Below, piece after piece: positions 35,446 to 45,266 of a stretch of DNA of 64,000 bases. The stretch lies in contig MJCC01000004.1 of the NCBI GenBank assembly GCA_001766655.1, forward strand, positions 819,421 to 883,420. Reading direction: 5' to 3'. The notes beneath the pieces were generated by a model that was not told the DNA's origin, made no database searches, and saw only the letters and a program-made list of their open reading frames with translations. Made by a program: the position numbers and the translations under genes. This DNA is from Phytomonas francai (Eukaryota > Euglenozoa > Kinetoplastea > Trypanosomatida > Trypanosomatidae). Numbering within the stretch: position 1 is the first letter of the stretch; each line of letters opens with the position of its first letter.

Positions 35446-36504
35446 TTAGTAATCCCTGAACTCTGCCTGCTGTGTTGACGTTAACGGCGGATTGCGATCC
35501 ACAGGGCTATCAGGATACTTTTCAAAGTTGCTGGTGTCACCGGGGTTCCGCACCTTCACAGGAATTGGTGCTGGATAATAGCGCGCGTAGAGCTTATCCC
35601 AGTTCGCGCCGCTAAAGTACGGATGGTTCTTGATGTCCGCCACGCCCCCCTTCAGCGTACCCAGACGTCGCGTGTGGTCATTCTGCAGCAGCCCCTTCAC
35701 GAGATCACGTGCACGCCCGTCGAACCAGTTCGGGAACCTCAGCCGGCCGGCCAGGATCTTCTCATAGATTCGGAACGGCGTGTCGTCGTAGTATGGGGGA
35801 TAGCCCGAGATGAATTCATACAGAAGGACGCCCATCGTCCACTAGTCCACCGCCTTGCCGTGTCCCTTGCTCTGGATCACCTCCGGTGCGAGGTACTCCG
35901 GCGTCCCGCACAGCGTAAACGTCCGGTCCGTTACCCTCTTCGCGAAGCCAAAATCCGTCACCTTGACGTGGCCCTTGCTGTCCAGTAGCAGGTTCTCCGG
36001 CTTCAGATCGCGGTAGATGATGTCCAAGGAGTGCAGGTACTCAAACGCTAGCACGAGCTCCGCGTGGTAGAACTTCGCCACGTCGTTCGGGAAGCGACCG
36101 GCCGTCCGCAGGTGCGTGAACATCTCGCCCCCCATCACGAACTCCATCATCAGGTACACCTTCTTCTCGTCCTGGAAGGAGCACATCATGTTGACGATGA
36201 ACGGGTGGCTCAGCTTCATCAGAATCTCCTTCTCCTGCGCCAGGTGCTGCTGCTGCTTCATTTTGATGATCTCCCGCTTCTTGAGACACTTCACCGCGTA
36301 AAACTCGTCCGTGCCCTTGCGGCGCACCAAGCGCACACGCCCAAACGAGCCGGTGCCTAGCGTCTCGCGCATCTCAAAATCGCTCAACTTCCATGAACTC
36401 GTATCCGGCAAGGTAAACCTTAATACGTCGGTGATTAAAAAATTCGAGCTGCCTTCACAGATTAACGGTATACAACAAGTGAAGCCCAAATCCCTACGGG
36501 ACAT
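35446..36504 (-). pseudogene. PKAC2: PKA catalytic subunit copy 1, interrupted by TAG
   Basis: A second PKA catalytic gene that is full length except for one in-frame TAG at 35842-35844. From 35451 to 36409 it matches the intact copy (49293-50251) base for base except at 35821, 35843 and 35950. The changes at 35821 and 35950 are silent. The one at 35843 turns the second Trp of D-W-W-T-M-G into TAG. The product would stop after 220 residues, at the start of the C-lobe helix after the A-P-E motif, losing about 131 residues and so not folding as a kinase. The N terminus (about 31 residues from the ATG at 36504) and the final residue (Tyr rather than Phe) differ completely from the intact copy. 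It may be a recent pseudogene, an allele or assembly error, or a case of readthrough; TAG is a normal stop in neighbours. Confidence 0.75.
35451..36409 (-). repeat. 959-bp near-identical tract shared with 49293-50251
   Basis: The tract is collinear, without indels, and differs at three positions. The borders fall inside the coding region, at the codon before P-D-T-S-S-W and at the last codon, and there is no similarity outside. This is more like gene conversion of a kinase core between two paralogues than a fresh duplication. Confidence 0.9.
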
Positions 36505-37069: not shown

Positions 37070-40000
37070 TTATACAATATGGAAACCATCACTCACGTGG
37101 GCTAATGCAGTTTCAAGCTTTTCCTTCAATACTCCTTTGTCATTGTAGTCACCAAGGTCTAACTGATGCACACACCCATGGCCAACTGGTAGGCGTTGCG
37201 TGTCAGAGGCCTTGACCACCTTAATTTTCCTCAGGCTGTTATTTACCGGCATCGCGGCTGAAGAGGTGCAAAACTGCAGGAAGCGCCGTAAATTGTTTTG
37301 TGAGGTTTCTAAAATGAACTCCTTCAAGTACGTTGGGGTTTGGGATGTGCTATTGAACCCGTGGAACTCTAGCGCATCGATGATCATCTGAGGGGAGACG
37401 TGTTGGACGCCGCACAATAACAGCAGGAGATCGGACGGGGAAAGCAGCTTGAGATGTGGTTCGATGGAATGAAAACTGTAGAAACCCTTCTTCATTGCCG
37501 TCAAAGCACGCTTTCGTCTCTCAATAAGATGGAATTGAACAGAAAGCTCCACATAGTCGCGCACGTTGTCGGTCGTCAGGGCGGTCTCCCGTATGTACCT
37601 TCCATCAAAGTGGTTAGCCAAGAAGGTTGTGGTGAAGGTTGAAAACTTCAGCTCCGCTGCCTCCAGGTCCTTTGAAGAAAGCAGGCGCAGACGCTTAAGC
37701 GACTCCGCCAGAACGCGGTCATATTCCTCCAAGTCCAACATGGAAACAGACGCACCACAGAAGTACTTGATAACCGAGAGGTTAAGCTGAAGTGGCAACG
37801 GACGGTTCTCGACAATGCTCTTCAGCAGCACCTTCCCCAGCAACTCAAAAACGCTTGTTCGTATGTTTTTATCATCCTCGGCTGGAATATACGTCACCCC
37901 CGTCACAATACCCACCTCCGCATCCCTGGACAACGCCACCTCCTCGTCGTTGATCGAACACACGAGCGCGCTCTCCCGCTTTACGACTTGTTCGTAGTAC
38001 AAATTCAACATCTCCGTGGTGAGCGCGCCCTCGTCGATGCCGGATTCGCCCTGAAAGACGACCATAATCGGCGCCATCATATCATCCTCGTCGAATCGCT
38101 CCATGATATTCGTGAGCGACTCCAACATTTGATTCCTCGAGACGGATACGAGGACCTTTTGCGTGCGCGTCGCGCGAAGCGCATGAATGTACGAGCGCAC
38201 CGCATCAATCCGCTCATCGCTCTTCGCCAGCGTCGCGCTGCTGATGGTGCCGGGGATGGAGCTCATCGAGGAGCTGAAATACGGGTGCGCGAGGAGCTCG
38301 TAGGCCGTCGCCCGCCTGCCCATATCAACGACCAGTGCGAGCATGATCAGATCGGCCAGCTTTTCATCCCCGCCAACGCGCCGTGCGGGGACGTCGACGA
38401 TGCCGTTGCTCGACGCGACGAGCGGAAAGTCAGGCTCCCCCAGCGACGCGTCGTCGAAGAAGGCGTTGTACGCGACCACCTCGTAGAAGGTAACCCCGAG
38501 GGCCCAGATATCGCTCTTCGTGGTGGCGCCCTTGCGCTCACCGAGGAGCTGCTCCGGGGCCATGTACCGCATCGTCCCCGAGGCGCTCTGCACGGCCGGG
38601 GAGTTGGCCGTCATCGTAACGTCGAAGCCCTCGCCCAGCCGGCCGTTATCCCTGGCGATGCCAAAGTCCGATATCATTGGATAGCCGTTGTCGGCCATGA
38701 GGATGTTCGACGGCTTGATATCGGCATGGCAGATACCCCGCTCGTGCAAATACGCGAGGCCCGTGGCGAGCTGCCGAAAGATGCTCTGTACCTCCCCCCA
38801 TGGGATGGGTTCCCTCCTATTAAGACGTGTCTTGAGGCTCCCACGATGGTAGTAGGGAAGGAGAATATACGCGAATGGTCCGTCAAAGAAAACACCCTTG
38901 ACCCGAACAATATTGGGGTGCGAGCAGGAGGCGATAATGTTCACCTCCCGTTGAAAGCTGCGGCGAACCTTTTCATCATCGATGGGGATCTCCTTTAGCG
39001 CAAAGTTGTCGCCGCGCCGCACCGCATGATAGACCTTGCTACTCACAGTCGATGACAGGGTTGATACGATCTGGAAGTCCGAAAATGACACGTTCAGCCA
39101 GAGACCACTCCCTTTGATGAGACGCAAGATACGTGAACTAGACGCGATGGACTTCCACACGAGCTCAGGATGGTCCGTCTGGACAAGTTCAAAAATACGC
39201 TTCTGAACCCCGTTTTGCCGTACGTTGATTTCGGTGATGCTCTGCTGGACGGCTTTGATGTGATCTTGCAGAACTAAAATACGATTCTCCGGCTCGTCCT
39301 GAACCTTCAACCACTCGACCTCTGCCTGTAGTTGAATTCGCTGCCGCTCAAACATCAAGCGCTCCTTCTCGAGTTGGGCCTCCTCCTCTAGAAGGTGGTT
39401 ACCTTCCTCAAGTGTCGCTTTGAATGAAGCCTCGTCCAGTTTCACACGTTGAATTATCGCGTTCATCTGGTCCAGCGCCTCCAGGCGACTATTAGAGAGC
39501 TCTCGGGTGGCCGAATGAGCCATATGCCTAGCATGCCGTTCAAGTTCAACGCCCAGGTTCGACGCCTCGTCCAGTAAAGGGTTGATATTCTTCATCTCCG
39601 CTGTCTCCTTCTCAAGGGCCTTCTGTAAGGCGCAGCTTGCCGAGTCCGTTTCCGCAAAGCACCGCTGCACTTTACGCACCTTCTCGTTGATTGCCAGCCT
39701 GCGCATGAGGAGCTCATCAAGGCGGCTTAAATCATTCTCTTCCTCCTGCGTACAAGATGGAAAATCAGAGGTTGGGGTGGGATGCGGCGTGAACGGGGAT
39801 GATGATTTAGACGAGGAATAGTCACCGGTGCCGTTACTGGCCGCGAACTCGTGTGGCCCCTCTTTTCTAGAACCGAAGCGACGGAAAAAGGCCTGCTCCT
39901 CAGCAGCGATCACGTGCAGCTTCGCAATCGCATTCTCCACCTCGGAGGCTGTTTCCCACACGTTTTTGTAGGTCTCATCACGAGTGCGCTTTGCGTTGTA

Positions 40001-41014
40001 GTACGAGGCCCGATCCTGGCTCTTGAGGGTGTTCCGAAGTTCCTCTTGTGTCTCCTGAGCGTATTTGCACAGCTCGGATAACCTATGTGTGGTCGCAATA
40101 TTCAAAAGGTGCTTTACCCTCTGCACACTCGATCTACAATTTACGATATCATCCTGTCCCTTGAATGTGTCCTCGTAAGAATTTACCTCTTCGCGGGATT
40201 TCACGATGGAAGCAATGAGATTCCTCAGATACTCATAGTCAATTTCTGGTGATGAAGAAAGACAACCATCCGTCTCGGCGGACTTGATCATGAACGGCGA
40301 CAGCAACGAATCGAAATTCATCGAGCCATTAGAGGAGTTGGTGGGCGCCCGAGCTAGCTTGGATTCACATTTGGCGATGGCGACGAGAATTGTCTGCTTG
40401 TCCTCGACTGGCGTCAGTTCCAGTGACTTTTTCAGGTTATCCAACGCTGCGGCGAATTCCCCCATAGCGACCTGTGCGAGACCTAGGCGGTAGTATGCCT
40501 TGTAAAAGTTTGAGTTTATTCGAATGGCTTCCATGGAATCCTTGGCAGAGGCCTCATAATTACCTAACTTGTAGTGAACAAGAGATCGGTTGGTGAAGTT
40601 GAGCTCTTGGTTAGGATTTCGCTCAATGGCTTTGGTGTAAAGATTGAGCGCGTCGGTGTAACGTCCTTCCCTGAATGCCTTATTCCCTTTCTCACGAATC
40701 CGTGTGTCGTCTAAATTTTGAGAGGTCGTTGTGGATGGAAACTGGAACGGGGTGAGTTGCTGCTCGCGCTGGATCCACAACGATGGCGGCATCCCCCCCG
40801 AGTAAATGTGCCCAGTCGTGTTCTCCGACCTACTATTCGAAGTATTAAAGGGCGAAGAATTGCTGTGCGAGCCTATAACATTTCCTGTTGACATACCTAA
40901 CTGACTAAAAGGTATTACAAAAGGAATGTTACGTGATACGTTAATGGTGGAATCTGAGTTTCGGCCCCGAAGTTGCGGAAACAATTCCAGAAAAGACTCT
41001 AATGGATTTGCCAT
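37070..41014 (-). CDS. TPR - coiled coil - protein kinase - HECT E3 fusion
   Basis: A 1314-residue protein joining four modules. TPRs (about 105-215) have I-R-E-K-G-N-K-A-F-R-E-G-R-Y-T-D-A-L and two further repeats. A long charged coiled coil follows (about 400-640). The kinase (about 655-920) has Lys in F-A-L-K-E-I (near 674), H-A-D-I-K-P-S-N in place of H-R-D, D-F-G (near 784), M-A-P-E-Q and D-I-W-A-L-G-V; its Gly loop is replaced by S-S-T-V-S-S. The last 330 residues form a HECT ubiquitin ligase domain: F-Q-G-E-S-G-I-D-E-G-A-L-T, L-L-G-K-V-L-L-K, and the catalytic Cys in G-H-G-C-V-H-Q-L-D-L, 34 residues from the end as HECT requires. It probably couples phosphorylation or kinase-dependent binding to ubiquitylation. 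The ATG at 41014 is preferred; 53 more codons upstream are hydrophobic and behind a likely acceptor (41029-41030). Confidence 0.8.
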   Translation of the reverse strand: MANPLESFLELFPQLRGRNSDSTINVSRNIPFVIPFSQLGMSTGNVIGSHSNSSPFNTSNSRSENTTGHIYSGGMPPSLWIQREQQLTPFQFPSTTTSQNLDDTRIREKGNKAFREGRYTDALNLYTKAIERNPNQELNFTNRSLVHYKLGNYEASAKDSMEAIRINSNFYKAYYRLGLAQVAMGEFAAALDNLKKSLELTPVEDKQTILVAIAKCESKLARAPTNSSNGSMNFDSLLSPFMIKSAETDGCLSSSPEIDYEYLRNLIASIVKSREEVNSYEDTFKGQDDIVNCRSSVQRVKHLLNIATTHRLSELCKYAQETQEELRNTLKSQDRASYYNAKRTRDETYKNVWETASEVENAIAKLHVIAAEEQAFFRRFGSRKEGPHEFAASNGTGDYSSSKSSSPFTPHPTPTSDFPSCTQEEENDLSRLDELLMRRLAINEKVRKVQRCFAETDSASCALQKALEKETAEMKNINPLLDEASNLGVELERHARHMAHSATRELSNSRLEALDQMNAIIQRVKLDEASFKATLEEGNHLLEEEAQLEKERLMFERQRIQLQAEVEWLKVQDEPENRILVLQDHIKAVQQSITEINVRQNGVQKRIFELVQTDHPELVWKSIASSSRILRLIKGSGLWLNVSFSDFQIVSTLSSTVSSKVYHAVRRGDNFALKEIPIDDEKVRRSFQREVNIIASCSHPNIVRVKGVFFDGPFAYILLPYYHRGSLKTRLNRREPIPWGEVQSIFRQLATGLAYLHERGICHADIKPSNILMADNGYPMISDFGIARDNGRLGEGFDVTMTANSPAVQSASGTMRYMAPEQLLGERKGATTKSDIWALGVTFYEVVAYNAFFDDASLGEPDFPLVASSNGIVDVPARRVGGDEKLADLIMLALVVDMGRRATAYELLAHPYFSSSMSSIPGTISSATLAKSDERIDAVRSYIHALRATRTQKVLVSVSRNQMLESLTNIMERFDEDDMMAPIMVVFQGESGIDEGALTTEMLNLYYEQVVKRESALVCSINDEEVALSRDAEVGIVTGVTYIPAEDDKNIRTSVFELLGKVLLKSIVENRPLPLQLNLSVIKYFCGASVSMLDLEEYDRVLAESLKRLRLLSSKDLEAAELKFSTFTTTFLANHFDGRYIRETALTTDNVRDYVELSVQFHLIERRKRALTAMKKGFYSFHSIEPHLKLLSPSDLLLLLCGVQHVSPQMIIDALEFHGFNSTSQTPTYLKEFILETSQNNLRRFLQFCTSSAAMPVNNSLRKIKVVKASDTQRLPVGHGCVHQLDLGDYNDKGVLKEKLETALAHVSDGFHIV

Positions 41015-41522
41015 CAGAAGGCAGCAAACTTTTTTTAAAAAAAAAACCCTGTATTTGGATAAGTTAGAAAGAATATGTATCTTGAAAGCGAACAAGATTA
41101 CTGTGAATTTGCTACAATCAACAGGAGAAGAAAGTGGAGAATAAAGACAAAATTGTCGATAGGACATCTTCACGCAGCAACTACGAACCCCATATGCCTT
41201 TCCTATTCACCAAATTAGATTTATGATAACGCATAAATTACGACATAAATTATTGAATTAATAATTAGAAGCCCCCTTCCCTGAAAATTTTCGCATTGAG
41301 GTACGAAACCCTCCTCTTCAAACCATTCTCAGGAATTGAGGGAGTGACTGGATGTTGTTTTATTGAACATGCATATAAAACTTACTAGGATACTGTTATA
41401 AAGGAGATAAGTACAGAAATAAAAATAAAAATAATAAAAATAACACAACTAGTAGAAGCAAATTTTATAAATCGTTTAACTCACCCCAATTGAGCTTTTT
41501 TTTTTTTTTGGTGTTTGGCTCT
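41015..41522. other. Intergenic spacer TPR-kinase-HECT - carrier
   Basis: AT-rich; an A10 run (41037-41046) in the pyrimidine tract before the fusion gene, and a T13 run (41498-41510) just past the carrier stop. No gene seen. Confidence 0.6.
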
Positions 41523-43733: not shown

Positions 43734-45266
43734 TTAATGCCGCTGATGATGCTGCTGCTGCTGGTAAAGGCACTGGGCATTCGTGGGGAAGGGGCTTAGG
43801 TTGGCGGGCGGCGGGGGCATGTACATCGTCCCGTCCGGGCGGCGGTAGACCACCGGGGGCTGCTGTCCGCCGGGAAGAAAGAACTGCGGCTGCGTGCTCG
43901 CGATGAACTGGCCCTGCGGGTTCATCATGAGCGACATCGGCATCGCGTTCGGGACGGCGAGGTGCGTCTGCATGGGCATTTTCCCCCCGGACGGCAGGCC
44001 TGGCGGGGCGGGATGGAGCATCGGGTTCCCGCCCTGCATCCACGGCTGCGGCGCGAGGCCCATCCCGCCGATCGGCGCGAGCGGGCCCGGGACGGGGTGC
44101 GGGATCTGCTGGGCCGGCGGGCGCGCGCCGCTCGCGGGCTGCGTGGGGAGGGCGCCCGGCATCGACAGCGGCCGAAGCGAGCCCGCCGGGGGCGCTCCCC
44201 CCCCGCGCGCCTGCCGGAGCAGCATCGGCTCAAGCTCCGAGGCCTGGATGACGCCCTTCGCCTTCTCTTGGGGAAAGCCCAAGTCCTTCGTGGGCATCCT
44301 CCCCGACTGCAGCATCTGCTCCAGGTCCTCGGCCCGCACGATGTGCGATTGCGGGGCAATGTCCTGCCGGGGCGCCCCACTCGGGTCCGCCACCGCCATT
44401 GAGCCCATCGAGGGCTTTCCCAGAGACCCAGGGGCGTTCTGGAAGGGCATCCCAGGGAGGTTCGAGACGCCGCCTGCGATGGCAACACTGCCCATCGCAT
44501 TGCCCCCTGCCTGTGCTCCTAAAGAGCTGTTCGGGGCGGCCCCGCTCGCGTGCCCGAAGTCTTTTTGCGCGAACGCCGCAGGGGGCTGGCTCCAGATATT
44601 TGCATCCGATGTGTTCTCCCATCCTTTCACCAGCCCTTGGTTCGACGGGGCTTCGACACCGAAGAAGCGCGAGCGACGCGTGTTGTTGGCCTTCGGCTCA
44701 TCGCGCATCGCGATGCCCGCGATGAGACGCTCGATCTCATCATTACCCTTTTCATCCTCCCGGGGGGCAGGGGGTTCGACCTTCTTCGCGCGCTGCTCCT
44801 CGTCCTTGCCGTTCTCCTTCGCGATGGTCTCCTTGAGCTTCCGGTTGTGCGCCGCGTTCCGCTCCAACTCGTACTTAATCCCCTCTTCAAAGGTCTCCTG
44901 ATCACGGCTGCCACGCCAGCCCCGCGGGGGGGGGGCGAATCGGTCGTGCGCGGCCCGGCTCTCCTCGCGGGGGCCGCCTGCTCGCCGCTCGTTCGCGCCC
45001 ACGCCGGCCTCGGCCCCGCGGCCTTTCGCGTTTCCGCCGGCGAGGACGGGGGCGGGGCCGGGCGGCGCGGTCTGGCTCGTCTCCGCGCTTTGGACGGCCT
45101 CGCCGCCGCGCTCCCCCCCCCGCCGAAGCCCCGCCGCCGCCGCGGGGTCGACGACCTCAATCACGTCGAACCTCTTCGCCGCCTCCGCGGGGAGGGCCCG
45201 ATCGCGAACGAGCACCGCAAAGTCCAGAAAGTCGCCCTTCGTGTACACCCGCCGGGACGATGACAT
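43734..45266 (-). CDS. 4EIP: Probable eIF4E-interacting protein (4E-IP/4E-T-like)
   Basis: A 510-residue low-complexity protein. Right at the N terminus is a candidate eIF4E-binding motif, V-Y-T-K-G-D-F-L-D-F (Tyr8, hydrophobic pair 13-14), close to the Y-T-K-E-E-L-L-D of 4E-T and to the Y-x-x-x-x-L-phi rule, with Phe in place of Leu. Further in, R-R-S-R-F-F-G-V-E-A recalls the S-R-F-x-x-[WF]-F element of 4E-T. The C-terminal half is Met/Pro/Gly/Gln-rich and disordered, with A-E-D-L-E-Q-M-L-Q and A-S-E-L-E-P-M-L-L repeats. In trypanosomes 4EIP represses mRNA through eIF4E1, and, from memory, its gene lies between the PKAC2 and PKAC1 genes, as this one does. The start is the ATG at 45266; twelve upstream codons lack ATG. 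Confidence 0.6.
   Translation of the reverse strand: MSSSRRVYTKGDFLDFAVLVRDRALPAEAAKRFDVIEVVDPAAAAGLRRGGERGGEAVQSAETSQTAPPGPAPVLAGGNAKGRGAEAGVGANERRAGGPREESRAAHDRFAPPPRGWRGSRDQETFEEGIKYELERNAAHNRKLKETIAKENGKDEEQRAKKVEPPAPREDEKGNDEIERLIAGIAMRDEPKANNTRRSRFFGVEAPSNQGLVKGWENTSDANIWSQPPAAFAQKDFGHASGAAPNSSLGAQAGGNAMGSVAIAGGVSNLPGMPFQNAPGSLGKPSMGSMAVADPSGAPRQDIAPQSHIVRAEDLEQMLQSGRMPTKDLGFPQEKAKGVIQASELEPMLLRQARGGGAPPAGSLRPLSMPGALPTQPASGARPPAQQIPHPVPGPLAPIGGMGLAPQPWMQGGNPMLHPAPPGLPSGGKMPMQTHLAVPNAMPMSLMMNPQGQFIASTQPQFFLPGGQQPPVVYRRPDGTMYMPPPPANLSPFPTNAQCLYQQQQHHQRH

Follow-up and report, generated by a model that had tools for sequence, protein, structure and literature searches.

A protein joining TPRs, a protein kinase and a HECT domain was described in 2005 in Leishmania major: in the passages concerned, the kinome paper gives LmjF35.4000 as a Leishmania-specific gene in which a kinase domain termed unique is combined with three TPR motifs and HECT (PMC1266030), and its table counts HECT-kinases as 0 in T. 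brucei, 0 in T. cruzi and 1 in L. major (PMC1266030). The title of PDB entry 9gmp, released on 2025-09-24, is 'TKUL kinase domain from Leishmania mexicana'. The locus analyzed here lies in a 64,000 nucleotide stretch of Phytomonas francai (contig MJCC01000004.1, positions 819,421 to 883,420; the window), the minus strand of which carries a gene for a protein with the same order of parts as Leishmania TKUL/LmjF35.4000, namely TPR, helical region, kinase and HECT.

By sequence comparison the window protein is the Phytomonas orthologue of TKUL/LmjF35.4000. Over 235 aligned residues its kinase shares 66% identity with 9gmp, and 9gmp itself differs very little from the corresponding stretch of P0015, which groups with the Leishmania and Porcisia rows of our alignment. 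The kinase-HECT half shows 59–60% identity to the three named Leishmania rows P0007, P0008 and P0013 over 100% of the query. Apart from the genus, the difference lies in the HRD motif, which reads HAD in the window protein, the Leishmania kinase structure having HGD. The sequence-only reading of this DNA had proposed an undescribed kinase-HECT system; that claim falls with the 2005 description of the L. major orthologue, whose domain set is the same in the relevant part of that paper (PMC1266030), and with the deposition of 9gmp as TKUL. No functional paper on TKUL was found, and since the literature was not searched under that name one may exist. An L. mexicana mutant designated HECT12 loses fitness as promastigotes and axenic amastigotes and, in the portion of the paper concerned, is to be 'described elsewhere' (PMC7647121); HECT12 might be the L. 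mexicana orthologue.

Relatives were collected by protein searches, each of which scored only the 8000 or so candidates that had most words in common with the query. The kinase-HECT search listed 79 proteins; by their precomputed Pfam assignments both domains occur in 32 of them, and the other 47 have a kinase but no HECT. A HECT-only search added P0081, and a search from a Gloeochaete protein added P0083 (Angomonas), P0084 and P0085; with the window protein the family set comprises 37 rows. Its members come from Phytomonas, Strigomonas, Angomonas, Leptomonas, Novymonas, Porcisia, a euglenid and others. The pair of kinase and HECT domains is thus found in other kinetoplastids (Leishmania, Strigomonas, Angomonas and others), where the sequence-only reading had proposed to look for it, the label Leishmania-specific is rejected, and the kinase-HECT core is, on these alignments, older than Leishmania. 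The euglenid protein (P0032) possesses the TPR and shows 39% identity over the whole query part. P0033, a kinase-HECT sequence, comes from a Gloeochaete transcriptome, and as it rests on this one transcriptome contamination is possible. The stretch between kinase and HECT could be aligned by eye in the 37 rows, least well in P0084 and P0085, which argues for a single fusion event. In the HECT tree the window protein groups with Phytomonas EM1 and Hart1 (100/100) among the trypanosomatid rows, and its kinase-HECT half is 86% identical to that of EM1; the order at the base of the tree is unsure because long branches meet there. P0081, P0084 and P0085 have differing N-termini and strongly degenerate kinase domains. 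A UBA match in P0081 falls below the cut-off, as, just barely, does a RanBP zinc ribbon in P0085, and Cys-rich finger-like stretches were seen by eye in P0081 and P0084.

The reading frame is free of stops over 41167-37070 and would encode 1365 amino acids. The start given from the sequence alone, Met52 (41014), is better supported than Met1, since the Phytomonas EM1 orthologue (P0002) begins at the equivalent Met and since the 51-codon extension upstream contains a pyrimidine-rich tract followed by AG, as judged by eye. A scan of the coding sequence revealed a single pyrimidine run of at least 10, within the kinase (residue 768), and none between kinase and HECT. The same layout is present in a single frame in all 28 rows which hold TPR, kinase and HECT, and this, together with the Pfam E-values, excludes a chance origin of the domain set. 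The joining of two genes by assembly error is ruled out by these 28 single frames, and is also countered by a kinase-HECT junction that can be aligned by eye across the 37-row alignment. The earlier description of TPRs, a kinase and a complete HECT domain in one uninterrupted frame is therefore borne out, and the proposed profile search matched both HECT (E = 1.4e-55) and kinase (E = 1.1e-48). The coordinates of the features are collected in Table 1.

Table 1. Features of the TPR-kinase-HECT gene; positions are those of the window and residues those of the open frame
Feature	Position	Strand	Basis
TPR-kinase-HECT protein, likely coding sequence from the frame's Met52, 1314 aa	37070..41014	-	frame opens at 41167; start by comparison with P0002
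TPR domain, residues 157-253	40409..40699	-	
Putative carboxylate-clamp R158 and N162 (HOP K8 and N12 equivalents)	40682..40696	-	
Putative clamp N193 (HOP N43 equivalent)	40589..40591	-	
Putative clamp K223 and R227 (HOP K73 and R77 equivalents)	40487..40501	-	
First helical region, residues ~311-432	39872..40237	-	AlphaFold2 helices, model 260-381
Second long helical (coiled-coil-like) region, residues ~478-663	39179..39736	-	AlphaFold2 helices, model 427-612
Protein kinase domain, residues 694-965	38273..39088	-	K725, E741, D816, N821 and D834 present
HECT domain and N-terminal extension, residues 985-1365	37073..38215	-	Pfam, phmmer, alignment to E6AP
HECT catalytic Cys1332	37172..37174	-	37/37 rows; aligned with the E6AP Cys (HECT structure)
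Phe1362, Phe at -4 from the C terminus	37082..37084	-	37/37 rows

That the protein is a HECT-type E3 (ubiquitin ligase) is, from its domain content, near certain. The Pfam HECT match covers residues 1093-1364 with 189.5 bits against a curated cut-off of 23.9, and phmmer aligned the HECT domain of HUWE1 over residues 1000-1364, which indicates a complete domain. Cys1332, the His at -2 (His1330) and Phe1362 are conserved throughout the family (37/37 rows). The catalytic Cys had been placed at the 34th residue from the end, and alignment with the E6AP Cys confirmed this. A scan of the genome assembly (17.4 Mb, 37 contigs) gave 11 HECT matches.

The most informative clue to the targets of this ligase is the putative TPR clamp, of which the sequence-only reading makes no mention. 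The best Pfam stretches are TPR_2 160-186 and TPR_1 223-251 (two stretches each). Five positions (R158, N162, N193, K223 and R227) correspond to HOP K8, N12, N43, K73 and R77, which we take to be the dicarboxylate-clamp residues. They are kept, with Lys/Arg exchanges at most, in all 28 rows that reach the TPR, the euglenid included; the equivalent of HOP K8 is Arg in 26 of the 28. The structures closest to the TPR model include SGT, CHIP and Sti1, and many of the nearest by Z are binders of chaperone tails, which speaks for a chaperone partner, as does a clamp conserved down to the euglenid, which fits a partner that is itself conserved along with its tail. The alternative is that the TPR holds an acidic C-terminal peptide that belongs neither to Hsp70 nor to Hsp90, the protein being an ordinary substrate-specific E3 with no chaperone role. 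TPR clamps are able to hold other C-terminal carboxylates, the Arg at the HOP K8 position could signal an altered preference, and designed and other TPRs fit the model nearly equally well; weighed against the nearest structures and the depth of conservation, we consider this alternative unlikely, at roughly one chance in four. The cytosolic-type HSP90 of this genome (L014) ends in MEQVD, not MEEVD. PDB entry 8ye5, titled as the reductive dehalogenase TmrC from a cell-free system, is identical to the TPR of P0015 at 127/127 aligned residues. The entry probably contains a protein of a Leishmania cell-free extract under the wrong name.

Between TPR and kinase, AlphaFold2 (model residue + 51 = open-frame residue) predicts two helical regions connected by a low-confidence linker; of the 'long coiled coil' noted from the sequence, the helix stands, and the support is limited to helix.

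The kinase is matched by Pfam over residues 708-964 (166.4 bits; cut-off 31.7). The beta-3 Lys (K725), alpha-C Glu (E741), catalytic Asp (D816) and DFG Asp (D834) are all present in the window protein, whose nucleotide loop is devoid of Gly, and so is not Gly-rich, and whose HRD Arg position is Ala815, so that it is not an RD kinase. Over the 37 rows the latter position is Ala in 24, Gly in 8, Arg in 2 and another residue in 3, being Ala or Gly in the rows which keep the catalytic Asp. At the Asp816 position itself 26 rows have Asp, 9 Asn, one Arg and one Leu; the Asp is thus missing in 11/37 members, every one of which has its HECT catalytic residues intact. The catalytic Lys, Glu, Asp, Lys and Asn and the DFG motif are retained in 19/19 D-keeping trypanosomatid rows (18 plus P0083), and the APE Glu and DxW Asp are conserved in 37/37 rows each. 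Eight of the Asn rows (P0019-P0024, P0027 and P0030) form a single clade among the trypanosomatid rows (support 100/99), and the states D and not-D require two changes on the HECT tree (2-2 over bootstraps). Within this Asn clade the beta-3 Lys is also lost in 3 rows, the DFG Asp in 2 and the DFG Gly in 1.

The two domains were compared by their identity to seven outer rows, P0081, P0084 and P0085 being excluded. For the kinase it averages 37.4% in the 8 Asn rows against 47.2% in the 19 D-keeping rows (bootstrap 95% of the difference 6.8-12.6), and for HECT 43.3% against 43.9% (-1.2 to 2.5). The kinase-minus-HECT identity is positive in 19/19 D-keeping and negative in 8/8 Asn rows, these being related and not independent. 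Where catalysis was lost the kinase was thus partly freed from constraint and the ligase was not. In the wider clade of the window protein (18 of the 19 D-keeping rows) the mean pairwise identity is 70.7% for the kinase and 68.4% for HECT, and a kinase conserved as much as the ligase is likely to be live, though unusual. Selection therefore probably acts on the module, which is likely to be active in this clade; across the family, the alignments suggest a constant HECT ligase and an optional kinase.

These data bear on the 'autonomous phosphodegron writing' put forward from the sequence alone, in which a substrate phosphorylated by the built-in kinase would be recognized at that site, and ubiquitylated, by HECT in the same molecule. 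Here such writing is possible, the catalytic residues being retained and the kinase being about as conserved as HECT in the D-keeping rows. It is unlikely family-wide, the Asp having been lost, with no fewer than two changes needed, in members whose HECT residues are intact, and the Gly-less loop and absent HRD Arg, as well as the failure of Pfam to show a phospho-reader domain in the HECT part, lower it to an improbable, though not negligible, explanation. The other proposal made there, a kinase-like module which directs or regulates the ligase, is a better fit to the family. The weakest alternative, and one we rather doubt, is that the kinase is silent in Phytomonas too, a nucleotide-sensing or protein-binding scaffold that merely gates HECT: it would explain the loop, the missing HRD Arg, the repeated origin of clear pseudokinases and the invariant APE Glu and DxW Asp, but drift as in the Asn clade would be expected, and the other catalytic residues are kept in 19/19 rows of the wider clade.

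We give about an even chance to the reading in which the protein is a HECT E3 working at the chaperone machinery via its TPR, with the kinase as regulator and probable writer and with clients ubiquitylated via Cys1332. The N-terminal TPR would clamp Hsp90 and/or Hsp70 by their acidic C-terminal tail, and the helical middle would space or dimerise the protein. The kinase beside HECT would control or position it and, in the lineage of the window protein, would probably also phosphorylate substrate, chaperone tail or the protein itself. HECT would accept ubiquitin from an E2 (ubiquitin-conjugating enzyme) on Cys1332 and hand it to the chaperone client. Chaperone docking, clients as substrates and the regulatory role of the kinase are all inferred from sequence.

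Such an enzyme would work like CHIP without belonging to the CHIP family. Membership in CHIP/STUB1 is rejected since Pfam revealed no U-box in the window protein at E up to 0.1; HECT in place of the U-box implies a Cys-thioester mechanism, and the extra kinase and the length of 1314 residues are further differences. No match to CHIP_TPR_N was found in this genome, but control genomes were equally silent, so absence is not established. Kinase and E3 are also joined in one polypeptide in MEKK1, KEG and the plant U-box kinases, where the E3 is of the RING/PHD or U-box type and the fusions are unrelated. To our knowledge none of HUWE1, E6AP and the NEDD4-type HECT E3s has a kinase, and it is in this that they differ from the window protein. 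Two points tell against the chaperone-linked role. The TPR match is lacking in four relatives (P0033, P0081, P0084 and P0085). No named Trypanosoma row occurs among the matches listed in the kinase-HECT, HECT-only and Gloeochaete-protein searches, an absence that is weak evidence since the HECT-only search missed the true relatives P0031-P0033 and many rows are nameless. Trypanosoma is apparently without TPR-kinase-HECT and likewise without an identified CHIP, which a 2025 review gives as unidentified in both Leishmania and Trypanosoma (PMC12570473).

As in Leishmania, a PKA catalytic subunit adjoins the gene: the PKA-like kinase that the sequence-only reading places beside it is present as a frame at 35842-36504 (220 aa). 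This frame stops mid-domain, with kinase-like sequence continuing in the same frame for about 130 codons, and the in-frame stop is either an assembly error or a nonsense codon. PKAC1 of L. mexicana is LmxM.34.4010, one number from LmjF35.4000, which agrees with this arrangement. The L. mexicana orthologue would by inference be LmxM.34.4000, a number not found by term look-up in the main text of a kinome paper (PMC7902614). The neighbor at 43734-45266, a supposed 4EIP, gave no Pfam match.

What this analysis adds, at the level of sequence, is a wider age and range of the kinase-HECT core, the constancy of HECT against the loss of the kinase, and the TPR clamp residues. Tentatively, and as somewhat less than an even proposition, the family may provide the chaperone-linked E3 wherever euglenozoans possess TPR-kinase-HECT, with HECT doing the job of CHIP and the kinase an ancient, optional control unit; one kinase-HECT fusion would predate Euglenozoa, phosphotransfer having been lost at least twice and ligation never. 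If so, one molecule in kinase-live lineages could both phosphorylate and ubiquitylate a chaperone tail or client, and the switch which elsewhere decides between HOP and CHIP would be combined with the ligase itself. The role would have a named candidate where, in its part on Leishmania, the 2025 review found no CHIP (PMC12570473). For one Leishmania member, structures of the TPR and of the kinase domain exist in the PDB, and with the family data the 'Leishmania oddity' of 2005 becomes a testable system: one HECT ligase occurs naturally in a series of versions, some probably with a live and some probably with a dead kinase, which lets the role of a kinase domain in a HECT E3 be asked.

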